NCBI RefSeq assembly: GCF_045679555.1 | Contig: NC_092091.1 | Location: 19,378,572-19,442,571, forward strand | Direction: 5' to 3' | Length of the DNA: 64,000 bases | Source of the DNA: Salvelinus alpinus | Lineage: Eukaryota > Chordata > Actinopteri > Salmoniformes > Salmonidae | Made by a program: the position numbers and the translations under genes | The notes under the pieces: generated by a model | Seen by the model: only the letters and a program-made list of their open reading frames with translations | The model's database searches: none | Told to the model about the DNA's origin: nothing | Shown: positions 3,701-51,058 of the stretch, piece after piece | How the letters are laid out: each line of letters begins with the position of its first letter | How positions within the stretch are numbered: position 1 is the first letter of the stretch

Positions 3701-6700
3701 AAACATATAATGTATAAATACTCTCATATTTCCCTTTGAAATGGACTATGTTTGACATGTACGCGCTCGTATACCAGCGCAGCGGTACAGGGTAACGTTA
3801 CTGTGGACAAGTGTAGCGGGACAAAAAAGGAAGGCTCGCTGCTTGGGTGTAAGACGTTCAACTGTCCAGTGAAAGACTTAAAAGTTAATATTCTGTTAAC
3901 TCATAGCCAAATAATGTTGTTGACTCATCCTATACTCGTATGTGGTCAAAGCATACATTGGAGAAAACAAAAACACTTCAAAAACCCCACCTCAAACTTG
4001 TATCTCAAACAGACAGTTTCAAAAATGCTTACTATTTCCTTATGGAGGATGAGCTGGCCAATCAGCGGCCTACTCGCATGAATATTTTTAATGACCATTA
4101 GACGCCCATACCATGCTGTTGTTGAAGTACGCCCACACCATTCCAACACAGAAAAGCTGCTTTAGAACATACTTAAATACCTTTTTTTATATTGTCATTA
4201 ATTTAGGTTATATTAGATATCTAATATCCAGATATCTGGAAACACTTGAGAGTTACTTTCATGCTTCTCTGTGCTCTAACTAAGCAACATCTTGAGTAAG
4301 CGACATTTAGTTTTACCATCTGCGTCCGGGTCCGGTGGTAGGGTTGAATGATGGGCAGGCCCAGGGGCGTCACCCACTCCACCGTGTTGCCCGATTTAGC
4401 GATGAGCCTGGCGCTCTCCGTCAGCCAGTCCTGAAACAGAGTGCACCGCCACGGGTCAGCCAATGGAAGGAGAGGGAGCTACTGAGTGAAAGTAGGATAC
4501 TTGAAACACCACTCACAGGTCACAGCATTCTACTCCTCTGCTGCCAGCTACTGTAGATACACAGAGCTAGGGGATTCAATTCACTTCCATCACCCACAGT
4601 ACATTTGTGCTCAAATAAAGATGTTTGTGAAATTGAGGAAAATGTGAGAATATAGACACATTACATTCACTCAGCAGCTTGGAAGTATGATCAGTTTAAA
4701 CTTAGATGCAGTTTCTTCCGTGATTATATCTATCCGTGCAAACAAATGGAGAGTTTTCAAAGAAACAGGTGGAACGTTGTTGCTTGCAGACAATATAACT
4801 CTAGCATAGATATAACAGAACAGTGCTGGCCTGGCTGTTGCTGAGCCTGACATATATCGCTTCCATTCAAGAGAGAGCATTAGAGTCCTAGAGGTCCTCA
4901 TCCACAGCCTCAGTGTAGGAGACTAATATTTACATTTCACATTTTAGTCATTTATCAGACGCTCTTATCCAGAGACTTAAAGTAGTGAGTTTGCCATGGG
5001 GACCAGTATAAAAATGTACAATCGAATCCACAACCCTGGCATTACAAGTGCCATGCTCTCCCAACTGAGCCACACGACCCAGCTAGCAGGCAGGCCCAAA
5101 GCTGGCCCATTAATCAGACTGTCTGCCTGCTTTCTGGCCCTCTTTCCCCTGCTAATCATCCTACCTCTCCTCTCCCCCTCCTTCATCCAGGAACTTCCAG
5201 CCAGGTACAGGGAGGAGGGGAAGAGAGAGGGATTGATCATGTACTGTAACCTGCCACCGCTGCGCTCTTCTTGAGACTGCTGTGTAGACCCAGCAGGACC
5301 TGACCAATTTAGAGACGAACCGGGAGCTGGAGCAAGATGAAGGGGGAATATTTCATTTGAGCTGGGGCTGTGTGCCCTCACCGTAAAGCTACCCGGATCA
5401 TTCTTTCTCTAATGGTTTTAATGCATGACTATGAGCATTTAATGCATATGATGAACGAGCACGGCTACTGTGCTAATAGTAAAGCAAACTATAGTCGTTA
5501 ATAATAAGTGCTGGGTCAACTGTGGAGCTGGTATATGCAGCAGGTAAATGGATATATTAGTAATGTGTGTCAACGCAGGGTACCTGGATCTCTGGTGCCG
5601 GTGAACATCTCCTTCAGACTGCTGAACACCTGTTGGACCAGGTAGTGAGAGGCATCCCATACGTACTCCTGCAATCACAACACAATCTCAATGGCAGGAC
5701 AATACATATATCCAAATGCAACACATGTATATTTATTTATAGGCACATAATCGAAATGAGTAAAAGACCAAGCACAGAATCCAGAGGAACTCCACAAGGT
5801 AAATTATGTGCTGTTCCATAAAATAATTCCTGGGTTGATTTGAATAGGGGGGGGTAACAAACCGCCACCCCGAACTGTTCACACCCCTCTTGTTTGCAAA
5901 GAGAAAACATTTGCAGTTTTAAAGATGCACTATGCAGAAATCGCTCTGACATTTCCTGGTTGCTGCAATTCTAATAGTTCGCCTAAATGTAGTTTGTGAC
6001 AAAACAAGCAAGTATAGTGTAGAGAATCATTGTACCATCTAAACCGTTGTGAAATATATTTTCCATAACCAAAAATATTGTATTTTCAGCTGTTTGAAGA
6101 TGGTGTACAAAACTGAAAGTAAAAGACTCAAAAATGAAACTTAAATGGGAAGCATAGAAATAGCGCACATAGAACAGATCTGTCGCTTCTTAGACTTGCA
6201 TTCAATGAGAATGTATTTATTTAACTAGGCAAGTCAGTTAAGAACTGGTCGTGTCCCCCAAAAAGTTACATATTGCCTGCAATTTTACATGTGTGTTCAT
6301 ATGATACCAGGAGTCAAATCCCGAACCGAATCGTATTGACCCCATTGTGGGGTCTGGATCCGGCCTGCGGTCCGCCTATTGAGCATGGCTGCAGTAGGTT
6401 ATGACCATCACCATTTTTATAGATAAACGATTTTGGTGTAAAATTCGACTGAAAAGAAAAGGTATAAATTCATGATGATATTGCTGCGCTCAACTAAATG
6501 GATATCAGAAGTATGAACGTCACATTACAGTGCTTTGTGAACATTGGGGCGGCAGGTAGCCTAGTGGTTAGAGCTTTGGACTAGTAACCGAAAGGTTGCA
6601 AGATCAAATTCCTGAGCTGACAAGGTAAAAATCTGTCGGTCTGCCCCTGAACAAGGCAGTTAACCCACTGTTCCTAGGACGTCATTGAAATTAAGAGTTT

Positions 6701-9700
6701 GTTCTTAACTGACTTGCCTAGTTAAATAAAGATTTAAAAAATAAACAGCGTTTTAAAAAGATTTGTAGATACAGGTATATCACAGAATTCACTCCAACCC
6801 CACAGAAGCCTTTTTCCAATATGGCTGCCAAACAACTGCATTTCAATGGGATAAGGCGGTTTTCACAGTAATAAAAATGTCCCACTACATTGTTCCCAGA
6901 TTCCCTGTTCAACTAATGAGACAATTTCCCTGGCTGTTAGACGGGAAACACACAAGATAAGATTAGGTTACTACCATATTATAATAGGTCTGTGTGCTTA
7001 TGTGACGTAGCTAAAGAATAATAAAATCAATGGCTAATATAGACAGATACAGTTTAAGACGTCTCACAGCCGTCAGTATGGCACGTGTCACATTTCTCGT
7101 AACACAGTCGTATGTTATAGGAGATAATTATGTGATACTATTCATCCAGAAAGGCCACAGCTAGTCACATCAAAAACCAACAATTACAAAGATGACTGGT
7201 AGGCCGTACCTTGGGGAAGTCATCGACCTCCTTGAGCCTCTTCTCTATCTGGAGGCGTCCTCCGTAGCGCGTCACGCCGTACACCACCGTCATCACCGTC
7301 TGCTTCACCACCTTCGTGCTGATGAAGCCCTCCAGCACCTGGGCGATCTTCAGACCCTTCTCTGAGTCGCGCGCACGGAACTCCTCCACCTATAAAACAC
7401 ACAGAGCACCAAACACAGTATGACTGTCATCTTGTTCAAAGGGAACCGCACGTACTCAAGAGTATCATACATTAACTCTGACAGTCCCATAGCATAACAT
7501 GGGAGCATAAGAGAACCACATTGTGCTGCAGACAGTACATTGATTTAGACTGTCAGTGAATGACACAGTTATCACACATCTGACTCAACGGGCCAGTGGC
7601 TTTAGCAGCAGTTTGCTGTATAGCCTGTACAGAACCTGCTGTAGTAGTAGTTCTACAAGTGAACAGTCTAAATCAATGAACTGCAATCACCTTAAAGACA
7701 CACCAGGTGTATCCTTCCTGTAAACATTGTTGCCTTGATGATTGGTGCCCTGTATGTACTGGAGGTGTTTGTCCTCCAAGACTCAGAGCGGAGCTGATTT
7801 CATCATCTGATTTCTAATAAGCGCTCCTCAGGGGTGGCTCTCCGCTCTCACCGGTGCTTAAATCAACAGGCTCAAATTGTCTCCCATCTAAAATATGTAG
7901 CTTGGTCAGCGCAAAATCCTTGGGCTGTGCCTTCTGCGCTGCAGGGACTGGGGCTCAGGGAGGCCTGGGGTGAGAGGTAAAGTAAAGCCTGCTCTGACTA
8001 GTCTGAGGAGAGCAGGTGCTGTTATTGTAGACTGTGCTAAGTGCAAAGGAAAAAGGTACACTGTTGTTCACTAGGTATCCAATCACCCAGATAAATAAAG
8101 AAGCAAGCTCGGTAATGAGACACTCTTCAAGTACAACATTATTTATGAATTGATAAACTACGGATTTCAGCAACTGTTTCGACCTTGTGTGTTAATTGTA
8201 CATTATAGGTGGTAGGGGCAGAGCAATACAATCTCCCCGCCACTGCCCACTGGCGCCCTCTGGTGCCCAGGCTGACTGACCTGCTGTGCCACCCTGCTGT
8301 AGACATCCTGGGGCACCTCACAGGGAATTAGGTTCACAGAGGTGGCACCGATCACGTCCCGACCCAGGGCTGCGTAGTGCTGGAGACCATTACACGAACC
8401 ATCCTGAGGGGAGGAAGGAGGGAGTGACGAGAGAAATATAAATAAGACACTTTTATTGGGGTGGCAAATACAAGCTTAATCGAGGCCATGGATGAGTCCT
8501 GAAGAAGCACAGACAGACGAGGTCAAGGAGCTGCTCAGCTCTACATAGCTAGAGCCCAACCAACAGAAAGGTTAACTGATGTCTGAACACACCGTTTAGG
8601 ATGGATCAGACAGGGCAGTGACTGAGCACAAAGTCAAGTGACAAAACAACCATTTCACCAAAATGGTGTCAGGGGAGCTGTTGCCTTGTTAACTTTGATG
8701 AGGCCTCTAAAATAACAGTATAGCGCGTAAGTGAGACACCGCCTGTTAAGAGGTTGTAAATTGGAGAACCTTTAGAGGGGAGCTAAACAAAATGGACCCC
8801 TAGACCCTAGGAGTATGCAATATAGCAAAACTTTCACCTATTCAGAGGGTAATATGGAGCTATGACCGTATTGTATATACCTATCTAATCCTTTCAGATC
8901 TAAATGGAGGGTCAAGGGGTGGGGGTTAGAGGTCAGTGTCATTACCTGATGTACAGGAAAGTGGGAGATGAAGTGTGTGGGGTCAGGTGATCTGACAGCG
9001 TTGGCTATCTCCATACAGCAGGCCAAGGCTTGCCAGGGTTCATCTGCATTCTGCCACCACTTCTTACCCTGCCGTGGAAACACACACACAACCACAGACA
9101 ATACAGTATCAGATACCACAGATGAATGTTTAGATTATCTCTCAGTGGGTAGAATATTACAACCACAATCTATGAGCTGTAACAGTATGATAACAAACAG
9201 GACACATTGTTAGCAGACTGACGTTGAGGGGGTTGTCTCCAGAGTCCAGGATGTTGTCCATGATTGTGTTGGCGTACTCCAACCTGCCGGCCAGCGAGCT
9301 GCGTTTCTTGAAGCCTGTCAGGTTGACCAGGTGGATCTTCAGCCATTTCAGACCGCCCGGCCTCAGGCGCTTCCCCTCCGCAAACACCAGGATGGCCCTG
9401 GTCACATCGCTGCCCAGGTGGTTGAAGTAGGGCGGGCACGGGTACGTCCGCCCGCGGAGGTCTATGTTGTGGGGGAACCAGAAGACCTCGTCCCTCATGT
9501 GGTTGGCGATGGAGAGTTTATAGAGGGCATCCATCCTGAGGCTGTGCATCTCACTGCACTTCTTCTTAGCCATGATCAGCTCCCTCTTCAGGAGTAGGTG
9601 GCCAAGTCCTGCTGGCTGTAGCGGATGATCTTGGGGGCCTCGGAGTTGGGCGGCGGGACGTCCAGCTTCTCATTGCCCTTATCGTTGAAGATGGAGATGA

Positions 9701-12700
9701 TGATGTCCAGCAGGGGCTGGTTGATCCTCCAGGCCGCGTTGCCCAGCTGGTTGAGGGAGTCAAGCACGGCATGCAGGGGCTGGTTGATCCTCCAGGCCGC
9801 GTTGCCCAGCTGGTTGAGGGAGTCAAGCACGGCATGCAGGGGCTGGTTGATCCTCCAGGCCGCGTTGCCCAGCTGGTTGAGGGAGTCAAGCACGGCATGC
9901 AGGGGCTGGTTGATCCTCCAGGCCGCGTTGCCCAGCTGGTTGAGGGAGTCAAGCACGGCATGCAGGGGCTGGTTGATCCTCCAGGCCGCGTTGCCCAGCT
10001 GGTTGAGGGAGTCAAGCACGGCATGCAGGGGCTGGTTGATCCTCCAGGCCGCGTTGCCCAGCTGGTTGAGGGAGTCAAGCACGGCATGCAGGGGCTGGTT
10101 GATCCTCCAGGCCGCGTTGCCCAGCTGGTTGAGGGAGTCAAGCACGGCATGCAGGGGCTGGTTGATCCTCCAGGCCGCGTTGCCCAGCTGGTTGAGGGAG
10201 TCAAGCACGGCATGCAGGGGCTGGTTGATCCTCCAGGCCGCGTTGCCCAGCTGGTTGAGGGAGTCAAGCACGGCATGCAGGGGCTGGTTGATCCTCCAGG
10301 CCGCGTTGCCCAGCTGGTTGAGGGAGTCAAGCACGGCATGCAGGGGCTGGTTGATCCTCCAGGCCGCGTTGCCCAGCTGGTTGAGGGAGTCAAGCACGGC
10401 ATGCAGGGGCTGGTTGATCCTCCATGCCGCGTTGCCCAGCTGGTTGAGGGAGTCAAGCACGGCATGCAGGGGCTGGTTGATCCTCCAGGCCGCGTTGCCC
10501 AGCTGGTTGAGGGAGTCAAGCACGGCATGCAGGGGCTGGTTGATCCTCCAGGCCGCGTTGCCCAGCTGGTTGAGGGAGTCAAGCACGGCATGCAGGGGCT
10601 GGTTGATCCTCCAGGCCGCGTTGCCCAGCTGGTTGAGGGAGTCAAGCACGGCATGCAGGGGCTGGTTGATCCTCCAGGCCGCGTTGCCCAGCTGGTTGAG
10701 GGAGTCAAGCACGGCATGCAGGGGCTGGTTGATCCTCCAGGCCGCGTTGCCCAGCTGGTTGAGGGAGTCAAGCACGGCATGCAGGGGCTGGTTGATCCTC
10801 CAGGCCGCGTTGCCCAGCTGGTTGAGGGAGTCAAGCACGGCATGCAGGGGCTGGTTGATCCTCCAGGCCGCGTTGCCCAGCTGGTTGAGGGAGTCAAGCA
10901 CGGCATGCAGGGGCTGGTTGATCCTCCAGGCCGCGTTGCCCAGCTGGTTGAGGGAGTCAAGCACGGCATGCAGGGGCTGGTTGATCCTCCAGGCCGCGTT
11001 GCCCAGCTGGTTGAGGGAGTCAAGCACGGCATGCAGGGGCTGGTTGATCCTCCAGGCCGCGTTGCCCAGCTGGTTGAGGGAGTCAAGCACGGCATGCAGG
11101 GGCTGGTTGATCCTCCAGGCCGCGTTGCCCAGCTGGTTGAGGGAGTCAAGCACGGCATGCAGGGGCTGGTTGATCCTCCAGGCCGCGTTGCCCAGCTGGT
11201 TGAGGGAGTCAAGCACGGCATGCAGGGGCTGGTTGATCCTCCAGGCCGCGTTGCCCAGCTGGTTGAGGGAGTCAAGCACGGCATGCAGGGGCTGGTTGAT
11301 CCTCCAGGCCGCGTTGCCCAGCTGGTTGAGGGAGTCAAGCACGGCATGCAGGGGCTGGTTGATCCTCCAGGCCGCGTTGCCCAGCTGGTTGAGGGAGTCA
11401 AGCACGGCATGCAGGGGCTGGTTGATCCTCCAGGCCGCGTTGCCCAGCTGGTTGAGGGAGTCAAGCACGGCATGCAGGGGCTGGTTGATCCTCCAGGCCG
11501 CGTTGCCCAGCTGGTTGAGGGAGTCAAGCACGGCATGCAGGGGCTGGTTGATCCTCCAGGCCGCGTTGCCCAGCTGGTTGAGGGAGTCAAGCACGGCATG
11601 CAGGGGCTGGTTGATCCTCCAGGCCGCGTTGCCCAGCTGGTTGAGGGAGTCAAGCACGGCATGCAGGGGCTGGTTGATCCTCCAGGCCGCGTTGCCCAGC
11701 TGGTTGAGGGAGTCAAGCACGGCATGCAGGGGCTGGTTGATCCTCCATGCCGCGTTGCCCAGCTGGTTGAGGGAGTCAAGCACGGCATGCAGGGGCTGGT
11801 TGATCCTCCAGGCCGCGTTGCCCAGCTGGTTGAGGGAGTCAAGCACGGCATGCAGGGGCTGGTTGATCCTCCAGGCCGCGTTGCCCAGCTGGTTGAGGGA
11901 GTCAAGCACGGCATGCAGGGGCTGGTTGATCCTCCAGGCCGCGTTGCCCAGCTGGTTGAGGGAGTCAAGCACGGCATGCAGGGGCTGGTTGATCCTCCAG
12001 GCCGCGTTGCCCAGCTGGTTGAGGGAGTCAAGCACGGCATGCAGGGGCTGGTTGATCCTCCAGGCCGCGTTGCCCAGCTGGTTGAGGGAGTCAAGCACGG
12101 CATGCAGGGGCTGGTTGATCCTCCAGGCCGCGTTGCCCAGCTGGTTGAGGGAGTCAAGCACGGCATGCAGGGGCTGGTTGATCCTCCAGGCCGCGTTGCC
12201 CAGCTGGTTGAGGGAGTCAAGCACGGCATGCAGGGGCTGGTTGATCCTCCAGGCCGCGTTGCCCAGCTGGTTGAGGGAGTCAAGCACGGCATGCAGGGGC
12301 TGGTTGATCCTCCAGGCCGCGTTGCCCAGCTGGTTGAGGGAGTCAAGCACGGCATGCAGGGGCTGGTTGATCCTCCATGCCGCGTTGCCCAGCTGGTTGA
12401 GGGAGTCAAGCACGGCATGCAGGGGCTGGTTGATCCTCCAGGCCGCGTTGCCCAGCTGGTTGAGGGAGTCAAGCACGGCATGCAGGGGCTGGTTGATCCT
12501 CCAGGCCGCGTTGCCCAGCTGGTTGAGGGAGTCAAGCACGGCATGCAGGGGCTGGTTGATCCTCCAGGCCGCGTTGCCCAGCTGGTTGAGGGAGTCAAGC
12601 ACGGCATGCAGGGGCTGGTTGATCCTCCATGCCGCGTTGCCCAGCTGGTTGAGGGAGTCAAGCACGGCATGCAGGGGCTGGTTGATCCTCCAGGCCGCGT

Positions 12701-15700
12701 TGCCCAGCTGGTTGAGGGAGTCAAGCACGGCATGCAGGGGCTGGTTGATCCTCCAGGCCGCGTTGCCCAGCTGGTTGAGGGAGTCAAGCACGGCATGCAG
12801 GGGCTGGTTGATCCTCCAGGCCGCGTTGCCCAGCTGGTTGAGGGAGTCAAGCACGGCATGCAGGGGCTGGTTGATCCTCCAGGCCGCGTTGCCCAGCTGG
12901 TTGAGGGAGTCAAGCACGGCATGCAGGGGCTGGTTGATCCTCCAGGCCGCGTTGCCCAGCTGGTTGAGGGAGTCAAGCACGGCATGCAGGTCAGCGTCCT
13001 GGCACTTCTCCAGCAGGATCTCATGCTGGTTGGCGCCAACCACCGTGCGCATCATCTTGGTGGGGGTGAGGAGGTAGGCGCCGAACTTGGCCGAGGTCCA
13101 GAGCACGGGCGGGCACAGCATGGGCATCACGTAGGAGTCAAAGGTCAGCGTGGTCTCCATGGCTTCCTGCTGCATCTGTGTTAGGATGGGGTGCGGCTTG
13201 ATGAAGCCGACCTGCAGCCAATCACAACACGAGAGATCCAATTAAATACATGAAATACAAAAACACAGGTACAGTACCAGTCCAATCAAATGTCTGCTCA
13301 AAAGCAGAGCTGAACATTTTAATTAAGCTTCAGTAAAACAGGCAGCCTTATTTGCTGTGACAACGCCACCACATTAACCATGGCTTCTGGTGGAGAGCGC
13401 ATGCGGCTGATTTATTTCCTGACTAAGTGTAATTGTGATGATGTAAATACTGTGGTTACCAGCTAAGGCAACTGGTTCATAGCAGTTTTAATCACGTGTG
13501 ACAGCCGGAGACTAATTAGCTACTACCTGAAAGGTTTCACCAACCAAACCCACAGAGACACATCATTGTAGAAAACATACTGTATAAACCAACAGTGTAG
13601 TCTAACACACACAGAGAGACAACAGATTCAGTCCTTCAACCAGAGATATAACAAATCCAGTCCATCAACCAAGCAGATATTCCATGAAAAATAAATGAGA
13701 GAAGCATTGTGCAGCCTAACAACTCTGCATGCTGTAAAAATCATTAGGCTGCACCCCTGCTGCCCTACCCTCTACCCCCCTGAGCCAGCACAGCAGAGGG
13801 AGGAGTGGCCAGAGACCAGCTTTGAAACCCACAGCGGATTAGGATGCCGGCAGGCACTTCTTTTACACCAGGAACGAGGCTCAGAGGACAAAATAGAAAG
13901 TGTCTTAATTTCCTTGTCAGTTATCCCAGAGCAGTCAATCAGCCAGCCAATTAAGGGGACAGTAAAAAAAGTGATTATTTCGGAAGCCACACATCTAAAA
14001 TGCGCTGCATGGTCAATCCGACATCTGCATTGGCTGTGCAGCCTATACAGTGACACATCCTGTACAGAAGTCAGGGAATTCATAATTATTACGCTTCGCA
14101 GAGCTGTTGAGTAGAGCTGTTGTGAAGAAAATTGTCAAGGAAGTGAGTTTGTGTTTATACAGGACCTCCCGCCCCCACCTACCGTCAACCAATCAAGTCA
14201 ATGCGGAGCGATACGGAGCCCTCCGCATTATAAACAAATGTGGGAGGCACACAGCGATGTGGTACGGAGCAACTGCATCACACCCTCCATACGGAGCCTC
14301 TGACCACATTTACAGACGAAGCATAAATTGGCTTTTAGTCAACTGCACCGCCGTCCACTCTTGCAGGGAAAGCGGTTTTATTATTCATATGCTTATGAGC
14401 CCGGACCGTGCAGGCAGAGAATAATATGAGGGAGCTGGGCTGTGAGAGGAGAGCTGAAGAGACAGACATAGCAGCTATAACAGACAGCCCTTTCCAAAAC
14501 CAAGGTAGCCTGTTATGTTATGGCACCTTCTCACTGCTGCACTAACTGATTTCGCTCATAAAATATCAATGTGAAGACTAAGTCATGACACCAAAATGAG
14601 ATGTCACGAAAATGACCCGAAGCCTTGGAAATCTGATGAAAAAAATTACTGGCATAAATCACTTCAAAATGTAGTGTACGATTTACCTGTTTGTTACTGC
14701 GGAAAGTGTACATGTGGTAGAGGACAGGGATGAACTTCCTGTCATAGGCAGGGTTGAGGATGTCGCTGTTCACCTTCATGTGCTTGACCATGAGGTCCAC
14801 CAGGTACGTGCCCAGCTCCACCACCACCGTGTGGGGCCATTGGGTATTGTCCCCCAGCAGGGAGCGACCAGAGCTATGCTCCGACTCCAGCTTCCACCAT
14901 CGCTCCCTAGGCAATACGTCAAATTCCTGCACCGCACAGTAAGGAAGTTCTTTAAGTCAAACAGTAGGTCAATGATTTAATACATCTTGTAATTTATCTG
15001 TAAAAACAGATAAAGACCAGATGTGGGTGGAAGAGTGACACATAGAAATAGAATGAATAGAATGGGCTTGGAACCTCTACCGCTGGCAATATGACTGGTA
15101 AACTCATGGGTACACTCGCAATGGCTGCCTGCCTTGTGATGCAACATTTCTATGGTAATGTAGAATGTTCATTCAAATTATGTTAACTGATGTGGCTCAT
15201 GCTATGGAATGTATTTTTTGTAATGTCAGTTGAAACAACAAATCACAGCACATATTGATGGGTACACTTCCTGCTTTGCTCCTATGGGTACTCTCGCAAT
15301 CGCCACCAGTCCACCCATTATGCCATCATTGACTTGAATGGGGACACCTGTTCTATTCATTCTATTTCTGTGGAGTGTCATACCTTAGAGTCTTTGGCTA
15401 GTAGCTCAGCATATTCATTGTAGATATGGTTTCCCAGCTCCTTGGCCAGGATGTGGAGACACTCCCCACTGGATGGCAAGTTAGACAGACTCTGACAAAT
15501 ATCAACATTATTAGGATCATCTGTATTTTATAGCATTACATTTGATATCACGCTACAAAGATGCTAAATAAACCTGACTTTAGAACTCTAGATACATCAG
15601 AGGTGTAAACGAGTCAAGGTCCAACATTCTGCTGGGATGCAGTGGGCTTTACCTGAAGGGTCCAAACACAGAACGCCAAATTAAACGTTAGAACGTTCAT

Positions 15701-18700
15701 ATAATTTGTCAACCAGCTCAGACAATTTGACACCACTCAGAAAAATAAGAATTGAACCAACAGAGACACAGTATATGCATTGAGTGTACAAAACATTAGG
15801 AACACCTCCCTAATATTGAGTTGCACACAAGGTGTCAAAAGCGTTCCACAGGGATGCTGGCCCATATTGACTCCAATGCTTCCCACAGTTGTGATAAGTT
15901 AGCTGGATGTCCTTTGAGTGGTGGACCATTCTTGATACACACGGGAAACTGTTGAGCGTGAAAAAAAACAGCAGCGTTGCAGTTCTTGACACAAACCGGT
16001 GCACCTGGCACCTAATACCACACCCCGTTCAAAGGCACTTAAATCTTTTGTCTTGCCCATTCACCCTCTGAATGTCACACACACACAATCCCTGTCTCAA
16101 GGCTTAAAAATCCTTCTTTAACCTTTCTCTTCACCTTCATCTACACTTATTGAAGTGGATTTAACAAGTGACATCAATAAGGGATCATAGCTTTAACCTG
16201 GTCAGTCTATGTCATGTTTTGTACACTCAGTGTATATGACCCAAGGTCAGAGATAGTTGAGAGGATTAAGTGGGTTATATAATAATAATAATGATGATAA
16301 TAATAGCTTTATACCTGGATCATGATGTCTACATAGTCCTTTTGGTCCTTCAGACAGAGGTAGGGGCTGAGTCTGACGGCCTTCGGGGTGATGCTGGCCA
16401 GGATCATATTGCTCTCCCTCAGGGCCCCAACTAGGGCTTCGTGCCACACCATCCGCTGCTCTGCCAGTAGAGCCCTCTGAAACATACACCACCATCAGCA
16501 CGGTAATACTGCATGGTACTGTGTGGTTCTGGTGGACGAAAACATGATGAACTATGGTCCATAAGCAAGTTCTGCCTTAGATCCACTTTGGATATGAGTT
16601 CAAAGTTGATGTCAAGTTAAACAACACACACCTTATAACTCATTTGGACTCGACTAGCTAGCCAATAACCATCTGTGGTATTCAGCATGTGTTCCGATTC
16701 AGATATTGTGATCGAACAGAACAGGTCTCCAGCCAGGTTGTGAAACTGGGTCAACCCTCCATCTAGGGGACTGTCATATTGCCTGACCATGCCAGGAGGA
16801 GAGCCCAGCTGACACAGAGCAGATAGGCTGACCTGGACTCTAGATGACTCCGCCCCCTCCTCAGGAGAGCCCCATCAAAATACATTATCATTCTGCTGTA
16901 CATTATCATTCCGCTGTAAATGTTGCAGACCACCAGGGACCCTCGTCCTCCTGCTCCCAGTCTGAAACACTGTCTGGAGATGCAGGGAGAGTTTAAACCG
17001 TAAATGCCTGGCCCCAGATCACTGAGATAACAGGAGAGGCCTCAAAGCATTACATTTAAAGTTTTGACTGATGTCTGGAGATAAACTTCTCTCTCTGCTG
17101 ACACTGATGGAACATAAAAAAATAAAATAAAAATCAACGTAATGAAAATATGATTTTGTCATTGGCAATGGATTAAATACAATTCCACCCCTTCAATGTA
17201 AAGCGATTTGAGATCTTATACAACTCCAATAATTGCTCATTTCAGGGCCATTAAAAACAAAACAAAGCATAGTATATTTCAGTGTGTAACTATCCCATAC
17301 AACTATAGTAGTATATTTCAGTTTGGCCAAACTATACGTCTAGGTGGGTGGGGCAGTTTGTTTACCATCTTGGCCATGTGTGGGGTAACAGGCTTCATGG
17401 CCTCCACAGAGTGAATGGTGATGGTGCTGGCCTGCTCCATGCTCAGCTGACGGCTGAACCTCTCCCGCAGTTCCTCCAGGCTGAAGGCCAACTTGGGGTA
17501 CTTAGCATCTGCCCTCTGAAACACACACAGGTCAGAGGGTTCAGAGAGGCCGTACACAGACAGGGTTTTCCAGGGAGAGACTTTTACATCACAGGAGAGA
17601 GACACTGGAAGGGAGCATACATTAGACCTAATGTCTATTATCAGAATCAATATTAGATACATTGAGAATACTCACATAGCTATTTTGGAATGCGTGTGTG
17701 CACATTCGAGCGTGTTTGTCCAGGCTCTCTGTGTGTGTGTGTGTACAGTCCTAGCCAGTGCGTGTGTGTATTCTGAATAATATGAGTGTGTGGTGATGGG
17801 GAGGGTTTGGTCAGGTCAGGGTGCGTCGCTAAGTGTGTGTTGACTGTGCAGTCAGCTGCCAACACACAGAGCATTACGCAGCCTTAATTACTAGACCAGG
17901 GATTATCAACTAGATTCAGCCGAGGGTAGATATTTTCTTTAGCGGATGGTCAAGGGGCAGGAACACAATTACAAATCATTTGTAGACTGCAAATTGACCG
18001 CAAGAAGCCCAAACATATATAATATTTGACTAAACCATAATCTCAAACTTTTCTTACATTTGTATACAATCGCATACACTCAGTGGCCAATTTATTATGT
18101 ACACAACCCTGTTCACAAAAATGGTTCGCTCCTATAGACCGTGAGTCACGTTCCCATGGCTTGCTATAAAAAGGAGGCAGACAGGCCTCCGGTAACTGTT
18201 TGATTGAACGTTAGAATGGGAAAAACAAGTGACCTAAGCGACTTTGAGCGTGGTATGATCGTCCTGGGCTTTTCACACACGACAGTGTCTAGGGTTCACT
18301 GAGAATTGTGAAACCAACTAAAAAAAACATCCAGTCAGCGGCAGTCCTGTAGGCGAAAACAGCTTGTTGATGAGAGAGGTCGAAGGAGAATGGCAAGAAT
18401 TGTGCAAGCTAGCAGGCGGGCCACAAACAGGCAAATAACGGCGCAGTACAACAGGAGTGTGCAGAACGGCATCTCGGAACGCAACACTCGTCGGTCCTTG
18501 TCACGGATGGGCTATTGCAGCAGACAACCACACCGGGTTCCACTCCTATCAGCTAAGTCGGTAAGTCAGTCCTGTGACTCAGTTGGTAGAACATGGCACT
18601 TGCAACGCCAGGGTTGTGAGTTCAATTCCCATGGGGGACCAGTACGAACAAATATCTGAAAATGTATGCACTCACTACTGTAAGTCACTCTGGATAAGAG

Positions 18701-24700: not shown

Positions 24701-27700
24701 GCACTGTATGAATGCCGTCTGTCAGTAGGAAGGAAAAGTTATGCTGTGGCATGTGATGTGTAACACCTCGATGTAACCGAGGTAACAGAGGTCCCTGGTG
24801 GCCTTGTGTTAGCACTGCCCTCTAATGGAGAACAACAGAATACTGCGACAGTGACAAAGGGATGAGGTATCGGAGGGGGGAAGATTTGTCATCAATGAGA
24901 GAGTATTCCTTTGCCCTCCACAGCTTTCTGCAAGACAGTAATTAAATAGCATTCACAGAACCAAACGGAATCCGGGAGAGAGGTTGGAATGGCCATTAAA
25001 GACTCCCTGTACTGTTTAACATGTCATTTTCTCAGTGTCTCTTGAACAAAGAGGAGATTAGGGCTTGTTCTCTCAGTGTGGTCTGGAGGAATAAAGAGAC
25101 AGGGGCGGGGATTACACTGCTATCAGCTCGCAGGGAGATGACGAGCAAGAGAGCGACATAGCTGAATTGTGCAAGCTGAAGATAAACTTTAGTTCTGTAG
25201 GAATGAGATGTGCTTTAAAAGGATGCTAGCCACCAGGCACAGTGTCACTGTGGACAATGGAACCCACATCAGGCCAGGAGATACAGTATGACTAGAGACA
25301 GAAAGAGAGGGGGAACTTGAGACGAACAGGGGAAGGGGAGGAAGAAGTGTGAGAGAGAGATGGCTGGGCTGAAGAGGGAGCAGGAGAGCACCAGTGCAGA
25401 ACAACAACAAACCACACACCCTGAGGCTGCATTCATCGTAGCTGGGGATTTTAACAAGGCTAATCTAAAAACAAAACTCCCTAAATTCTATCAGCATATC
25501 GATTGTGCTACCAGGGCTGGTAAAACCCTGGATCATTGTTATACTAACTTCCGCGACGCATATAAGGCCCTCCCCCGCCCTCCTTTCGGAAAAGCTGACC
25601 ACGACTCCATTTTGTTGATTCCAGCCTACAAACAGAAACTAAAACAACAAGCTCCCGCGCTCAGGTCTGTTCAACGCTGGTCCGACCAATCTGATTCCAC
25701 GCTTCAAGACTGCTTCGATCACGCGGATTGGAATATGTTCCGCATTGCGTCCAACAACAACATGGACGAATATGCTGATTCGGTGAGCGAGTTCATTAGG
25801 AAGTGCATTGACGATGTCGTACCCACAGCAACGATTAAAACATTCCCAAACCAGAAACCGTGGATTGACGGCAGCATTCGCGTGAAACTGAAAGCGCGAA
25901 CCACTGCTTTTAACCAGGGCAAGGTGACCGGAAACATGACCGAATACAAACAGTGTAGCTATTCTCTCCGCAAGGCAATCAAACAGGCTAAGTCCCAGTA
26001 CAGAGACAAAATAGAGTCGCAATTCAACAGCTCAGACACAAGAGGTATGTGGCAGGGTCTACAGTCTATCACGGATTACAAAAAGAAAACCAGCCCCGTC
26101 GCGGACCAGGATGTCTTGCTCCCAGACAGGCTAAATAACTTTTTTGCCCGCTTTGAGGACAATACAGTGCCACTGACACGGCCCGCTACCAAAACCTGCG
26201 GGCTCTCCGTCACTGCAGCCGAGGTGAGTAAAACATTTAAACGTGTTAACCCTCGCAAGGCTGCAGGCCCAGACGGCATTCCCAGCCGCGTCCTCAGAGC
26301 ATGCGCAGACCAGCTGGCTGGTGTGTTTACGGACATATTCAATCAATCCTTATCCCAGTCTGCTGTTCCCACATGCTTCAAGAGGGCCACCATTGTTCCT
26401 GTTCCCAAGAAAGCTAAGGTAACTGAGCTAAACGACTACCGCCCCGTAGCACTCACTTCCGTCATCATGAAGTGCTTTGAGAGACTAGTCAAGGACCACA
26501 TCACCTCCACCCTACCGGACACCATAGACCCACTCCAATTTGCTTACCGACACAATAGGTCCACAGACGACGCAATCGCAACCACACTGCACACTGCCCT
26601 AACCCATCTGGACAAGAGGAATACCTATGTGAGAATGCTGTTCATCGATTACAGCTCAGCATTTAACACCATAGTACCCTCCAAACTCGTCATCAAGCTC
26701 GAGACCCTGGGTCTCGACCCCGCCCTGTGCAACTGGGTCCTGGACTTCCTGACGGGCCGCCCCCAGGTGGTGAGGGTAGGTAACAACATCTCCACCCCGC
26801 TGATCCTCAACACCGGGGCCCCACAAGGGTGCGTTCTGAGCCCTCTCCTGTACTCCCTGTTCACCCACGACTGCGTGGCCATGCACGCCTCCAACTCAAT
26901 CATCAAGTTTGCGGATGACACTACAGTGGTAGGCTTGATTACCAACAACGACGAGACGGCCTACAGGGAGGAGGTGAGGGCCCTCGGAGTGTGGTGTCAG
27001 GAAAATAACCTCACACTCAACGTCAACAAAACAAAGGAGATGATTGTGGACTTCAGGAAACAGCAGAGGGAGCACCCCCCTATCCACATCGACGGGTCAG
27101 TAGTGGAGAAGGTGGAAAGTTTTAAGTTCCTCGGTGTACACATCACGGACAAACTGAATTGGTCCACCCACACAGACAGCGTTGTGAAGAAGGCGCAGCA
27201 GCGCCTCTTCAACCTCAGGAGGCTGAAGAAATTCGGCTTGTCACCAAAAGCACTCACAAACTTCTACAGATGCACAATCGAGAGCATCCTGTCGGGCTGT
27301 ATCACCGCCTGGTACGGCAACTGCTCCGCCCACAACCGTAAGGCTCTCCAGAGGGTAGTGAGGTCTGCAGAACGCATCACCGGGGGCAAACTACCTGCCC
27401 TCCAGGACACCTACACCACCCGATGTCACAGGAAGGCCATAAAGATCATCAAGGACAACAACCACCCAAGCCACTGCCTGTTCACCCCGCTATCATCCAG
27501 AAGGCGAGGTCAGTACAGGTGCATCAAAGCAGGGACCGAGAGACTGAAAAACAGCTTCTATCTCAAGGCCATCAGACTGTTAAACAGCCACCACTAACAT
27601 TTAGCGGCCACTGCCAACATATTGACTCAACTCCAGCCACTTTAAAAATGGGAATTGATGGAAATTATGTAAAAATGTACCACTAGCCACTTTAAACAAT

Positions 27701-36700: not shown

Positions 36701-37454
36701 AAATCCCTATTGGAAAAATGAATGGGATGGAGGTATGAAAGAGTGTTAACACAGAAAGCTACCATTGCTGCACTGCTATCACACATTTTCCAACTCTAGG
36801 GACATGGACCTTTAAAAAAAATCACTATGAGACATGACGCCCCAAATCTGGGGGATCTGGCTCATGGACAAAATGTGCCATTTCAAAACATTCCAACTCA
36901 TAGGTAAATGGTTGACTTGAGTCAATTCATTTGCCATTTAGTATGGATTAGCAACGTCTTAAAAATAAATGTATATATTGGCATTTATCAGCCAACGACC
37001 TCTGATGTCTAAGTAATGTAACGTTACCCATGATGATAGCTAGCTAACTGTTTCAAAGTTCACTAACTAACGTTAGCTAGCTGCATGGCTACAAAAATCA
37101 AGACAGGATTTAGGGGGTGGCTGGTCAGTTAATTTATCTAACGTTTATCATGCATCATTACAAACAAGCTGTATACATTGAGACATATCACAAGTGATAT
37201 TCTGTGCGCTTTCCAGGTCTGACAACACTGTCTGAAATATGAATCCTGCATGCTTGAGCACTCGTCCCGTTGACTTAACAAGTTAGCTAGCGCAAGGGAC
37301 AACAACATTTACCTGATATTCGTCTTTCAACGTTATTCCGGAGTGTAAGAAAGTAGTGGCAATGGCCAGCATTTGACACACGACGAAGACTTCTTTCAAA
37401 CAATATTCGACCACTCAGACACTTCGATAAGGCACACAGTCTCAATAGTGACAT
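683..37454 (-). CDS. polrmt: polrmt, mitochondrial DNA-directed RNA polymerase; 18 coding exons, 3' end outside window
   Basis: This gene encodes the T7-phage-like single-subunit polymerase that transcribes mitochondrial DNA and makes replication primers in the matrix. The exons, read right to left, match human POLRMT in order: an Arg/Ser-rich targeting peptide, a Lys-rich linker, a PPR-like region (exons 3-5), an N-terminal domain, and the catalytic domain with motif A (DGSCNGLQH, exon 12), motif B ([13 protein letters not shown], exon 13) and motif C (HDCFWTHA, exon 18). Every intron has GT-AG ends, and exon phases agree except in exons 10 and 14, which are 1 and 2 nt short. Ignoring the 51 extra repeat units in exon 10, the exons here give about 1,231 codons; by comparison with human about 65 C-terminal residues are missing to the left. 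The identification is secure. Whether this copy makes protein is open because of the array and the two frameshifts. Introns 1, 4, 5, 7, 14 and 16 contain mobile elements. Confidence 0.93.
1038..1136 (-). CDS. polrmt: polrmt exon 17: [20 protein letters not shown] segment
   Basis: This 99-nt exon encodes [15 protein letters not shown] followed by [17 protein letters not shown], almost identical to the human fingers/palm segment just before motif C. It begins with the third base of a Gln codon left by exon 16 and ends with AG of the Ser codon finished in exon 18. The acceptor (TCCACAG) and donor (CAG|GTACAC) are both good. Confidence 0.92.
1540..1870 (+). mobile_element. LINE fragment in polrmt intron 16
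   Basis: The translated strand resembles the region before the reverse transcriptase in the LINE copies at 20.9 kb and 40.5 kb, with shared wording such as [23 protein letters not shown] and [12 protein letters not shown]. It stops abruptly after about 330 bp and lacks the polymerase domain. It is a dead, internally truncated insertion. Confidence 0.75.
2729..2775 (-). CDS. polrmt: polrmt exon 16, 47 nt, divergent
   Basis: The predicted exon encodes [15 protein letters not shown] plus two bases of a Gln codon completed by exon 17. It fills the gap between the exon 15 peptide and KPDT with the same spacing as human IQSITYTHNGDISRKPNT, and both phases fit. The acceptor (GCGGCTGAAG) is weak, so the 5' edge is less certain than for the other exons. 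Confidence 0.72.
2776..4316 (-). other. polrmt intron 15, nothing recognised
   Basis: About 1.5 kb between exons 15 and 16 with no coding similarity that I can support. A short CA run lies near 3320. Small open frames here lack any family signature. Confidence 0.45.
4317..4430 (-). CDS. polrmt: polrmt exon 15: WLTESARLI segment
   Basis: The 114-nt exon encodes [20 protein letters not shown] and then [18 protein letters not shown]. Human has [10 protein letters not shown]...[15 protein letters not shown]. It is in phase 0 at both ends, with acceptor CTGTTTCAG and donor ATG|GTAAAA. Confidence 0.95.
4935..5090 (-). mobile_element. tRNA-derived salmonid SINE (HpaI/SmaI-like), minus strand
   Basis: Read on the minus strand, this has a tRNA-like head with a B box (GGTTGTGGATTCGATTG) and ends in the GGATAAGAGCGTCTGATAAATGAC-type tail typical of salmonid SINEs. 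A second plus-strand copy is at 18.56 kb. It lies in polrmt intron 14. Confidence 0.8.
5584..5668 (-). CDS. polrmt: polrmt exon 14 with apparent 2-nt deletion
   Basis: The exon encodes [20 protein letters not shown] followed by MFTGTR, matching human EFVWEASHYLVRQVFKSLQEMFSGTR. Flanking exons require 87 nt, but it is 85 nt long. The loss falls after the Arg codon, where the bases read AGAGATCCAG and human has Ala-Ile-Gln; one AG unit appears to be missing from a short AG run. As it stands, the frame shifts before exon 15. This could be a real mutation or a sequencing error. Confidence 0.88.
6546..6747 (+). mobile_element. tRNA-derived SINE with TTAAATAAAG-type tail
   Basis: The head GGGCGGCAGGTAGCCTAGTGG contains an A box, and GGTTGCAAGATCAAATTCC is a B box. 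The body (CTGCCCCTGAACAAGGCAG) and the tail (ACTGACTTGCCTAGTTAAAT) recur at 33.24-33.43 kb. This is a common salmonid SINE type, here in polrmt intron 13. A tail-only fragment in the other orientation lies near 6215-6245. Confidence 0.82.
7210..7389 (-). CDS. polrmt: polrmt exon 13: motif B / fingers
   Basis: This 180-nt, phase 0 exon encodes [20 protein letters not shown] and then [19 protein letters not shown] and [21 protein letters not shown]. The Lys and Tyr of [13 protein letters not shown] form the O-helix (motif B) that selects the incoming nucleotide in this family. It is nearly identical to human. Acceptor TTTTATAG, donor AAG|GTACGG. Confidence 0.96.
8281..8403 (-). CDS. polrmt: polrmt exon 12: palm motif A
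   Basis: The 123-nt exon encodes [20 protein letters not shown] and then [21 protein letters not shown]. The first Asp is the motif A metal-binding residue. It has the same 41-residue length as the human counterpart and is in phase 0 at both ends. Confidence 0.96.
8946..9068 (-). CDS. polrmt: polrmt exon 11: GKKWW segment
   Basis: The 41 codons read [20 protein letters not shown] and then [21 protein letters not shown], as in human GRKWWMGAEEPWQTLACCMEVANAVR. Acceptor CCACGGCAG, donor CAG|GTAATG. The encoded stretch lies directly before motif A. Confidence 0.95.
9223..13211 (-). CDS. polrmt: polrmt exon 10 carrying a 52-copy in-frame 63-bp array and a 1-nt frameshift
   Basis: The exon starts VGFIKPHP, continues through [20 protein letters not shown] and [20 protein letters not shown], and enters the array. 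In human the matching segment (LHGALDALTQLG...AWRVN) occurs once. After 52 copies the exon continues [14 protein letters not shown] and [18 protein letters not shown]. There the frame meets TGA at 9590-9588; the expected continuation, [20 protein letters not shown] through [18 protein letters not shown] to [12 protein letters not shown], is in the neighbouring frame. Both exon borders are phase 0, so the length should divide by three, but it is 3,989 nt, one short. The natural reading is one C lost from a short C run near 9591. Without the 51 extra units the exon would be a normal 777 nt. Confidence 0.92.
9711..12986. repeat. 63-bp exonic minisatellite, 52 tandem copies
   Basis: The unit runs from CAGGGGCTGGTTGATCCTCC to ...CAAGCACGGCATG on the plus strand. 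On the coding strand each unit gives 21 residues, [12 protein letters not shown] plus NAAWRINQP. Copies 12, 33, 43 and 47, counted from the left, carry A for C in one Ala codon (GCC to GCA), which is silent. I see no other difference in any copy, judged from four parallel translated frames. Because 63 divides by three and the unit has no stop, four frames stay open across the whole array. Near-identity means either a very recent expansion, continuing homogenisation, or an assembly fault. Confidence 0.97.
13212..14686 (-). other. polrmt intron 9 with a probable dispersed repeat at 14150-14330
   Basis: No coding similarity was seen in this 1.5-kb intron. The part around 14190-14310, with repeated short GCGGAG/TACGGAGC words, resembles a dispersed salmonid repeat that I cannot name with certainty. 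Confidence 0.4.
14687..14926 (-). CDS. polrmt: polrmt exon 9
   Basis: The 80-codon, phase 0 exon encodes [20 protein letters not shown] through [20 protein letters not shown] to [20 protein letters not shown]. Human has PCLPRQYWEAL...SSRLVPVLYHVYSFRNVQQ here. It joins VGFIKPHP of exon 10. Acceptor GTGCAG, donor CAG|GTAAAT. Confidence 0.93.
15384..15491 (-). CDS. polrmt: polrmt exon 8
   Basis: The 36 codons read [20 protein letters not shown] and then [16 protein letters not shown], aligning with human QALPAQGESFTTLARELS...YLCLLASDAE. It is in phase 0. Acceptor TTTGTCAG, donor AAG|GTATGA. Confidence 0.88.
15778..16232. mobile_element. MITE-like element with TIR GAGTGTACAAAACATTAGGA, TA target (family A, copy 1)
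   Basis: The left end (CATTGAGTGTACAAAACAT) and right end (GTACACTCAGTG followed by TA) are inverted repeats of a family seen three times here (also 37680 and 47827). It has no open frame of note and is a nonautonomous element, probably Tc1/mariner because of the TA target. It sits in polrmt intron 7. Confidence 0.72.
16315..16476 (-). CDS. polrmt: polrmt exon 7
   Basis: This 54-codon exon encodes [20 protein letters not shown] through [20 protein letters not shown] to [14 protein letters not shown]. Human has DQWEKALCRALRETKNRLE...YPFLCLLDEREVVRMLLQV. It is in phase 0 at both ends, with acceptor TGTTTCAG and donor CAG|GTATAA. Confidence 0.92.
17366..17515 (-). CDS. polrmt: polrmt exon 6
   Basis: The 50 codons read [20 protein letters not shown] then [20 protein letters not shown] then [10 protein letters not shown]. 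They align with human SYPKLHLPLKTLQCLFEKQLHMELASRV. It is in phase 0, with acceptor TGTTTCAG and donor ATG|GTAAAC. Confidence 0.92.
18077..19063 (+). mobile_element. degenerate Tc1/mariner element, TIR CACTCAGTGGCCAATTTATT
   Basis: The ends CACTCAGTGGCCAATTTATT and AATAAACTGGCCACTGAGTG are inverted repeats flanked by TA. Inside are decayed transposase traces on the plus strand ([12 protein letters not shown] near 18220). The frame is broken by many stops and by a SINE at 18.56 kb. It is a fossil in polrmt intron 5. Confidence 0.82.
18560..18735 (+). mobile_element. tRNA-derived salmonid SINE inside the Tc1 fossil
   Basis: GACTCAGTTGGTAGAACATG is an A-box region and GAGTTCAATTCCCATGGG a B-box region. 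The tail AGTCTGCTAAATGAC is shared with the copy at 4.94 kb. Transposase-like sequence resumes on the right side, so the SINE inserted into the Tc1 element. Confidence 0.82.
20885..22225 (+). mobile_element. internally deleted LINE (RSg-1/L2-like) in polrmt intron 5
   Basis: The translated strand has the pre-RT region ([20 protein letters not shown]), RT start ([20 protein letters not shown]) and [12 protein letters not shown], then a frame break at about 21510 and continuation ([20 protein letters not shown]). At about 21730 it jumps from the VVRVGNNI motif to DLYTRQCQ, so the catalytic FADD box and nearby RT palm are deleted. The 3' end is ACAAATAAAGTTTGATTTGG. The uninterrupted TTAA at 21,870 is the empty counterpart of the piggyBac-like insertion at 38,395. 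Confidence 0.85.
22258..22738 (-). mobile_element. 5S rRNA-derived SINE (SINE3, OS-SINE1-like), minus strand
   Basis: On the minus strand the head reads GCATACCACCCTG and then GAAGCTAAGCAGAGTTGG and TGGATGGGAGA, which are the internal promoter parts of 5S rRNA. The body and the AT-rich tail (TTAAATAAATAAAATACAT) extend left to about 22258. The 5S part shows it is a SINE3-type element, known in salmonids as OS-SINE1. Confidence 0.78.
22820..23010. repeat. dispersed repeat with AAACGTTTTGCAAC words
   Basis: This piece (GTTGCGAAACGTTTAGTCTG ... GTAGGTCCCTCCACGTTTCG ... TACACCCCTAG) resembles a repeat widespread in salmonid DNA, possibly a SINE 3' body. I cannot define its ends. Confidence 0.45.
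23360..23546 (-). CDS. polrmt: polrmt exon 5: end of the PPR-like region
   Basis: The exon completes an Arg codon (AG|G) and then encodes [40 protein letters not shown] and [22 protein letters not shown]. Human has CLEQMSQEGLKLQALFTAVLLSEEDRATVLKAVHKVKPTF. It ends in phase 0. Acceptor TCCTCAG, donor GAG|GTAGGA. Confidence 0.92.
24412..24632 (-). mobile_element. tRNA-derived SINE, minus strand
   Basis: Read on the minus strand, it starts GGTCTAAGACACTGCATCTC, has a B box (GGTTCGAATCC) and a body (CATAGGGCGGCGCACAATTG) and ends in ACTGACTTGCCTACTTAAAT with an A-rich end. This is a very common salmonid SINE. It lies in polrmt intron 4. Confidence 0.85.
25360..27597 (+). CDS. LINE endonuclease (C-terminal part) and reverse transcriptase, 745 codons open
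   Basis: The frame encodes the end of an AP-type endonuclease (GDFN at residues 29-32; DH of the SDH-type motif at about residues 80-81, with Ala instead of Ser) and a full non-LTR reverse transcriptase. RT signs are [19 protein letters not shown], a [13 protein letters not shown] block, [18 protein letters not shown], the catalytic FADD at residues 517-520, and a C-terminal region ending [11 protein letters not shown]. The first 15 or so residues probably come from flanking host DNA, because LINE similarity starts near 25400. The frame has no stop or frameshift, so the insertion is young, but without the endonuclease N terminus it cannot move by itself. The closest fit is the L2/RSg-1-like group; the exact clade is uncertain. 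Confidence 0.9.
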   Translation: MAGLKREQESTSAEQQQTTHPEAAFIVAGDFNKANLKTKLPKFYQHIDCATRAGKTLDHCYTNFRDAYKALPRPPFGKADHDSILLIPAYKQKLKQQAPALRSVQRWSDQSDSTLQDCFDHADWNMFRIASNNNMDEYADSVSEFIRKCIDDVVPTATIKTFPNQKPWIDGSIRVKLKARTTAFNQGKVTGNMTEYKQCSYSLRKAIKQAKSQYRDKIESQFNSSDTRGMWQGLQSITDYKKKTSPVADQDVLLPDRLNNFFARFEDNTVPLTRPATKTCGLSVTAAEVSKTFKRVNPRKAAGPDGIPSRVLRACADQLAGVFTDIFNQSLSQSAVPTCFKRATIVPVPKKAKVTELNDYRPVALTSVIMKCFERLVKDHITSTLPDTIDPLQFAYRHNRSTDDAIATTLHTALTHLDKRNTYVRMLFIDYSSAFNTIVPSKLVIKLETLGLDPALCNWVLDFLTGRPQVVRVGNNISTPLILNTGAPQGCVLSPLLYSLFTHDCVAMHASNSIIKFADDTTVVGLITNNDETAYREEVRALGVWCQENNLTLNVNKTKEMIVDFRKQQREHPPIHIDGSVVEKVESFKFLGVHITDKLNWSTHTDSVVKKAQQRLFNLRRLKKFGLSPKALTNFYRCTIESILSGCITAWYGNCSAHNRKALQRVVRSAERITGGKLPALQDTYTTRCHRKAIKIIKDNNHPSHCLFTPLSSRRRGQYRCIKAGTERLKNSFYLKAIRLLNSHH
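25400..28132 (+). mobile_element. 5'-truncated LINE, 2.7 kb, in polrmt intron 4
   Basis: The element includes the reverse-transcriptase frame, a 3' untranslated region and the terminal TTTGATTTGATTTGATTTGA repeat at 28113-28132. The 3' region has two imperfect copies of a block of roughly 140 bp (CCACTAGCCACTTTAAAC ... CATCTACTGCATCTTGCC), at 27682 and 27810. The orientation is opposite to polrmt. Confidence 0.87.
28638..29565. mobile_element. piggyBac-like nonautonomous element, TTAA-flanked (copy 1)
   Basis: The element is bounded by TTAA on both sides (28634-28637 and 29566-29569), with inverted ends containing CTCTCTAGGGTA and TACCCTAGAG. It has no coding frame. The copy at 38395-39184 shares long stretches in the opposite orientation (GGCGAAAGCATACC, GACATCTAGTGGAAGCC). 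The TTAA target suggests piggyBac mobilisation. Confidence 0.68.
29570..30485 (-). other. rest of polrmt intron 4, nothing recognised
   Basis: About 0.9 kb between the piggyBac-like element and exon 4 with no feature that I can support. Confidence 0.4.
30486..30619 (-). CDS. polrmt: polrmt exon 4: PPR-like helices
   Basis: The exon encodes [20 protein letters not shown], then [20 protein letters not shown] and KVIN, plus AG of an Arg codon finished in exon 5. Human has GAFKELVYVLFMVKDAGLTPDLLSYAAALQCMGRQ, the pentatricopeptide-repeat-like part. Acceptor CTGCAG, donor CAG|GTAGGC. Confidence 0.93.
30727..31574 (-). CDS. polrmt: polrmt exon 3: Lys-rich linker, coiled coil and start of PPR region
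   Basis: This 848-nt exon begins by completing a Val codon, then [14 protein letters not shown] (human VLQARVRQLQ). A long Lys/Ser/Ala-rich, low-complexity section follows ([11 protein letters not shown] ... [12 protein letters not shown]), then a charged helix likely to form a coiled coil ([20 protein letters not shown]), and the PPR-like start [33 protein letters not shown]. It is longer and more basic than the human linker. It ends in phase 0 with donor AAG|GTAAGT. Confidence 0.92.
31686..31784 (-). CDS. polrmt: polrmt exon 2
   Basis: The 99-nt exon begins with two bases of an Asp codon, encodes [20 protein letters not shown] and [12 protein letters not shown], and leaves one base for exon 3. 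Human WGHVELLEVLQARV aligns with [14 protein letters not shown] across the junction, and phases fit on both sides. Confidence 0.85.
32382..32581 (-). mobile_element. tRNA-related interspersed repeat with TGTAAC ends, inside the hAT element
   Basis: Minus-strand reading shows a B-box-like GTTCGAGCCC, and the ends are GTGTAACAGTATA and TTGGTTACAC. The interior (GAGCAAGGGGAACAACTACT ... AACTAGCTAGCCATTTCAC) is a repeat that I recognise as frequent in salmonid DNA. Exact class uncertain. Confidence 0.6.
33244..33433 (+). mobile_element. tRNA-derived SINE inside the hAT element
   Basis: It shares body and tail with the SINE at 6546 (GAGCTGACAAGGTAAAAATC, CCTGAACAAGGCAGTTAACC, ACTAGTTAAATAAAG) and ends in an A-rich tail. 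The head is shortened. Confidence 0.8.
34610..34813. repeat. foldback (palindromic) element, arms about 88 bp
   Basis: The left arm (34610-34697, beginning CCCATATTGTGCCATT) and the right arm (34725-34813, ending GGCACAATATGGG) are near-perfect inverted repeats around a 27-bp spacer. Only a few mismatches are visible. It abuts the truncated end of the Tc1 element and is probably a small foldback MITE. Confidence 0.85.
34972..36551 (+). mobile_element. Sleeping Beauty-type Tc1 element with IR/DR ends
   Basis: The left end begins CAGTTGAAGTCGGGAGTTTA after TA, and an inner direct repeat, GGTCAGAAGTTTACATACAC, lies at about 35175. The right side has the matching inner (GTGTATGTAAACTTCTGACC, about 36337) and outer (TATGTAAACTTCAGATTTCA, about 36525) repeats. 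This two-repeat-per-end IR/DR layout and the end sequence are those of the salmonid Tc1 subfamily from which Sleeping Beauty was derived. The TA on the right is mutated. Confidence 0.93.
35365..36300 (+). pseudogene. decayed Sleeping Beauty-type Tc1 transposase
   Basis: The N-terminal paired-type helix-turn-helix part ([20 protein letters not shown]) is in one frame with stops. The longest intact block, 35574-36083, runs from [20 protein letters not shown] through the first catalytic Asp (WSDETKIEL) to [18 protein letters not shown] and ends [13 protein letters not shown]. The C-terminal part with the second Asp and the Glu ([14 protein letters not shown] at about 36075; [11 protein letters not shown] at about 36140) is frame-shifted. 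It cannot make a working enzyme. Confidence 0.88.
36560..37312 (-). other. promoter-proximal part of polrmt intron 1, nothing recognised
   Basis: About 750 bp without recognisable repeats or coding similarity. AT-rich with several GCTAGC words near 37040-37080. Confidence 0.35.
37313..37454 (-). CDS. polrmt: polrmt exon 1: mitochondrial targeting sequence
   Basis: The chosen start is the ATG at 37454 (A at -3), giving [20 protein letters not shown] and then [20 protein letters not shown]. This is rich in Arg, Leu and Ser with no early acidic run, as in matrix targeting peptides. A frame extending to a GTG at 37475 exists but is not a vertebrate start. The exon ends with one base of an Asp codon (TCA G|GTAAAT), agreeing with exon 2. 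Confidence 0.85.
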
Positions 37455-50815: not shown

Positions 50816-50817
50816 CA

Positions 50818-51058
50818 CTCACTGACTGCCTCCCTCACTCACTTACTCTCTCACTCACTGACTGCCTCTCTCACTCACCGACTGCCTCTCTCACTCACTG
50901 ACTGCCTCTCTCACTCACCGACTGCCTCTCTCACTCACTGACTGCCTCTCTCACTCACTGACTGCCTCTCTCACTCACCGACAGCCTCTCTCACTCACTG
51001 ACTGCCTCTCTCACTCACTGACTGCCTCTCTCACTCACTGACTGCCTCTCACACTCAG
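50818..51058 (+). repeat. 20-bp minisatellite, about 12 copies, upstream of fgf22
   Basis: The unit is ACTGCCTCTCTCACTCACTG with a frequent T-to-C change near the end (CACCG). It is pyrimidine-rich on the plus strand and leads into the low-complexity stretch after 51060. Confidence 0.95.

Follow-up and report, generated by a model that had tools for sequence, protein, structure and literature searches.

Among described systems, those closest to the locus reported here are minisatellites and VNTRs that originate at short direct repeats, coding VNTRs like the ones in mucin genes, and the decay of Ss4R ohnologs. The salmonid duplication dates back 80-100 My. The locus is a copy of polrmt from Salvelinus alpinus, located on the minus strand of a stretch of 64,000 nucleotides (NC_092091.1, positions 19,378,572 to 19,442,571; termed the window below), and a second copy is found on C16 of the same genome. 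Exon 10 of the window copy contains a long tandem array of a 63-bp unit. This array is very probably a recent minisatellite expansion, seeded at the motif GCAGG, in a salmonid ohnolog that is turning into a pseudogene while its partner retains the function of the enzyme.

The 63-bp array and the reading frame of exon 10

Cutting from position 9711 divided the segment 9711-12986 (3276 bp) into 52 head-to-tail units of 63 bp, and Tandem Repeats Finder reported 9710-12990 with a period of 63, 52.1 copies, 99% matches, and 0% indels. With units in the range of roughly 10-100 bp, the array is a minisatellite. A sequence-only reading of the window had described 52 copies of the unit within exon 10, one silent Ala-codon change in four of them, and a single occurrence of the segment in human POLRMT. 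The first two points were borne out by the Tandem Repeats Finder result and by cutting and comparing the units, and the third by the alignment of human POLRMT, which matches there once. Forty-eight of the 52 units were identical, and units 12, 33, 43, and 47 (in plus-strand order) shared a G-to-T exchange at unit position 22, which is the silent change. Private mutations were absent from the entire array, and its purity is far beyond chance. The variant units were irregularly spaced, at intervals of 21, 10, and 4. A 251-bp query spanning the array edge gave 26 matches in its own genome when the best candidates were scored, 25 of them in the array on C6 and 1 on C16.

On the minus strand, the array sits in a stop-to-stop frame of 1217 residues (13241..9588). 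The sequence-only reading had held that 1,071 additional residues nearly double an essential enzyme. An in-frame addition of 51 x 21 residues is indeed what the array would provide; the doubling is unsupported because, in the window copy, no single frame reads through the catalytic part. As evident from the alignment with the C16 copy, exon 10 has lost 19 bp at a point 121 bp past the array. Due to this loss, the array frame runs into a stop (9588-9590) ahead of the catalytic part, and the RGRTYPCPP stretch falls out of frame; a different frame (ORF 9157..9669) is the only one in which it is open. The stop, together with a 2-bp deletion in exon 14, leaves no single open frame through the catalytic part. 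A giant essential enzyme was ruled out by the stop, the frame of RGRTYPCPP, and the 19-bp gap relative to the C16 copy, and the claim of a nearly doubled protein is corrected accordingly. Mutual rescue of the two deletions (19 + 2 = 21 bp) was also considered and rejected: the phase is regained after exon 14, but a stop is met at once in between.

The remaining exons of the window copy were recognisable. Exons were numbered by counting against the Salmo trutta protein P0121, and matches in the window and in L020 together covered 1318 of its 1340 residues, the POLRMT exons lying in order on one strand. RNA_pol (PF00940) was matched seven times each at C6 and C16. Weak matches to the same family, 24-25 residues long, at C15:22819916-22819987 and C15:22861707-22861781 are due to chance or are fragments. 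Splice dinucleotides were present at the 10 internal exons checked, and no frameshift was seen in exons 1-9, upstream of and including the exon before the array, relative to S. trutta P0121. In-frame deletions were found in exons 7 and 8 (Table 1); the one in exon 8 equals the array unit in length, but a sequence relation between the two was not seen. The 2-bp lesion of exon 14 taken alone could be a consensus error, which hardly holds for the 19-bp lesion of exon 10.

Table 1. Features of the window polrmt copy (positions are those of the window)
Feature	Position	Strand	Remarks
Exons 11-15	4317..9068	-	splice-site dinucleotides at each; only exon 14 frame-broken
Exon 14, second frame-breaking deletion (2 bp)	5584..5668	-	85 bp vs 87 in the C16 copy
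Exon 10	9223..13211	-	3989 bp = C16 795 bp + 51 x 63 - 19
Remainder of exon 10, EMHSLRM...RGRTYPCPP	9223..9591	-	frame differs from that of the array
In-frame stop at the 19-bp deletion	9588..9590	-	junction near 9589/9590, uncertain to within a few bases
GCAGG, left arm of 5-bp direct repeat	9710..9714	.	left array edge on the plus strand
52-unit 63-bp tandem array	9711..12986	-	each unit = 21 residues (cyclic), in the frame of the exon
GCAGG, right arm of 5-bp direct repeat	12986..12990	.	right array edge on the plus strand
Exon 8, 63-bp in-frame deletion	15384..15491	-	108 bp vs 171; junction 15428/15429
Exon 7, 6-bp in-frame deletion	16315..16476	-	162 bp vs 168
Exon 1 (start codon side)	37314..37454	-	window polrmt copy

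The surroundings contain further repeats. A 20-bp tandem array occupies 61773-64000 of the window with about 112 copies and continues with about 8 more in L022 (1-168), another with a 20-bp period lies at 50816-51057 (12.3 copies), and a 41-bp tandem array lies at 54132-54784 (15.9 copies, 94% matches). Directly to the right of the window, a 15-bp array extends over L022 6982-9992 (about 202 copies, 86% matches). Degenerate CCCTAA-like repeats (69-72% matches) occur at 54993-55128 of the window and at L022 5413-5523; they are telomere-like in their letters, yet reside about 19.4 Mb into a contig of 101 Mb. Around the C16 copy, 10 overlapping minisatellite rows were recorded in 99.8 kb. On the plus strand of the window, 25321-27597 holds a stop-to-stop frame of 758 residues that resembles the reverse transcriptase of a non-LTR retrotransposon, as named by eye.

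The duplicate on C16 and the orthologues in other salmonids

Comparison with the other polrmt ohnolog had been proposed along with the sequence-only reading. The C16 locus was colinear with the window and contained one 63-bp unit, and the 11 exon pieces compared were free of stops. This intactness covers exon 6 to exon 15 plus some exons further down. The spliced piece of 717 residues aligned to human POLRMT (7zc4_A) over 5-711 and was identical at 715 of 717 positions to the protein of S. namaycush, at 714 to that of S. fontinalis, at 701 to that of Salmo salar, and at 699-703 to the Oncorhynchus models of the same type (A-type; B-type denotes orthologues of the window copy). A comparison of the window and C16 copies over 622 codons gave a Ks of 0.234, a Ka of 0.040, and a Ka/Ks ratio of 0.17; three of the pieces used include the acceptor CAG codon, and the 622 codons exclude exon 8 and some of exon 7. 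A Ka/Ks of this size between the char copies points to long constraint followed by recent loss.

Protein searches retrieved both polrmt copies from other salmonids. The colinear loci, together with the presence of both A-type and B-type proteins among Salmo and Oncorhynchus, mark the two copies as an ohnolog pair. Exon 10 was inspected in 44 protein entries, 40 of which were readable and 4 of which lacked the anchor words. Thirteen of the 40 were B-type models (S. trutta 3, O. kisutch 5, O. tshawytscha 2, O. mykiss 3). All 13 had one unit and retained the segment deleted in the window copy, with the reservation that frameshifts can be concealed in predicted gene models such as these. When up to 8 substitutions were allowed, 245 of 246 POLRMT proteins contained the unit once and 1 did not contain it. 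Thus, the array and the deletions are derived in the char lineage, and the window copy carries disabling lesions that are absent from its paralogue and from the B-type models, as is characteristic of a pseudogene. Neither a POLRMT with several units nor a B-type protein of Salvelinus occurred among the best 120 of 704, 760, and 340 protein matches; the Salvelinus proteins seen there were of the C16 type (P0135 and P0136), and a Salvelinus record may be among the 36 sequences of cluster P0121.

Relative-rate comparisons pointed to relaxed constraint in the window copy. With the char C16 copy as outgroup, changes were distributed 18:3 between the window copy and the B protein of S. trutta (p 0.0015), 18:5 for O. 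mykiss (p 0.011), and 15:3 for O. kisutch (p 0.0075). The fourth comparison, with O. tshawytscha P0107, a partial model with 514 columns, gave 14:10 (p 0.54). Other outgroups produced the same pattern. The char C16 copy did not show an excess over A-type orthologues when S. trutta B served as outgroup (8:7, 7:7, and 6:9), and the values with Esox as outgroup were 9:6, 9:2 (p 0.065), and 9:4. At 539 otherwise invariant columns, the window copy had 14 changes, including M-to-I and F-to-L in NMDFRGR. Unique changes elsewhere amounted to 0-4 in salmonid rows, 16 and 11 in two Hucho models, and 55 in Esox. The clustered changes of the two Hucho models probably arise from mis-splicing of the models. 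The high numbers in Hucho and Esox imply that such counts alone prove little.

A functional coding VNTR would require that the frame is restored in the RNA, by splicing or because the lesions are consensus errors, yielding a giant or a truncated, repeat-bearing POLRMT. The array being in frame, the exons 1-9 without frameshift, and the splice dinucleotides fit this explanation, and on the last two grounds a truncated product is conceivable. They are opposed by two independent frame-breaking deletions and the 63-bp deletion, by accelerated change that extends to the RGR motif, and by the existence of the intact C16 copy. In addition, a stop that is followed by more exons makes an mRNA a target of nonsense-mediated decay, and the stop in exon 10 precedes further exons. 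We regard a functional coding VNTR as highly improbable. A real polymorphic coding VNTR, an expanded decaying duplicate, and an assembly artefact had been offered as options in the sequence-only reading. The decaying duplicate is the one supported, because two frame-breaking and further in-frame deletions, excess amino acid change, and relatives with one unit in frame all speak for it, including the intact C16 copy; the giant coding enzyme is not.

Origin and timing of the array

The array is bordered by GCAGG on both sides, and the array with its flanks has the structure expected if a stretch between two GCAGG arms, spaced 63 bp, had been duplicated. These arms would originally have bracketed one ancestral unit in exon 10. 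The right arm has one mismatch in the C16 copy. Judging from the junctions, the GCAGG arms may have seeded the array.

The array might instead have been inflated by the assembler from few units or even one. Fifty-two near-identical units do resemble a mis-resolved repeat, and not one of the 246 POLRMT proteins compared has more than one unit. The spacing of the variant units, however, lacks the regular period of a simple loop, the GCAGG arms offer a natural biological birth, and three further minisatellites (period of at least 15, at least 5 copies) within the same 64 kb indicate that such arrays are normal here. An artefact is unlikely, and an error in the assembled length of the array is possible.

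A minisatellite expansion in a decaying duplicate would have proceeded as follows. The window copy represents one of the two polrmt duplicates that arose in the salmonid whole-genome duplication, here in char (Salvelinus). With the C16 copy supplying the function, the window copy would have come under relaxed selection. Slippage or unequal exchange between the GCAGG arms may then have created the first in-frame 63-bp duplication, and further rounds of unequal exchange or slippage would have lengthened it and kept its units alike, up to the 52 near-identical ones. The array would persist since nothing selects against it, and it is probably itself without function.

If the duplication is placed at 80-100 My, the excess protein change of the window copy corresponds to roughly 5-8 My without constraint, and the purity of the array puts its last homogenisation below roughly 0.6-0.8 My. 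The timing weakly favours death of the gene first and expansion later; homogenisation could hide an older start of the array. In the reverse order, in-frame insertion of units would have inactivated a functional duplicate and the deletions would have followed. The data do not fix which came first, and the array is located a short way upstream of the enzyme's palm motifs, both of which leave room for this order, but the two time estimates run opposite to it, and we consider it doubtful. Equally doubtful is the associated proposal that minisatellite growth in the polymerase core itself knocked out the duplicate in chars, which would make repeat expansion a route to ohnolog loss. Were it true, char lineages would carry differing array lengths on the same dead copy.

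The locus offers a neat example, open to dating, of minisatellite growth within an exon during or following the loss of function of a duplicate. If chars share the array or differ in it, it would serve as a useful, highly variable marker and could show whether repeats grow before or after a gene dies.

Comparison with known systems

In kind, the locus is nothing unusual: it is a striking, young minisatellite within one of two duplicates of an essential gene, the one that is decaying while the other is intact. Among the article titles listed on polrmt and salmon, on salmonid exon minisatellites, on coding VNTRs, and on salmonid pseudogenization, none concerned a polrmt repeat in fish. Coding VNTRs, for instance in mucin genes, likewise have a unit that is a multiple of three and stays in the frame of the exon; they differ in that the unit here belongs to an enzyme core and occurs once in relatives, and in that the frame breaks shortly past the array. 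Minisatellites and VNTRs that originate at short direct repeats share with the array the near-perfect head-to-tail units, here of 63 bp, and the edges with a short direct repeat, here of 5 bp, the repeat number here being that of one assembly. The decay of Ss4R ohnologs has its counterpart in two colinear copies in one genome with a Ks of 0.23, one of them intact and the other with frame-breaking deletions. The window copy departs from that pattern in harbouring a 3.3-kb minisatellite within an exon while it is still gene-like exon by exon.
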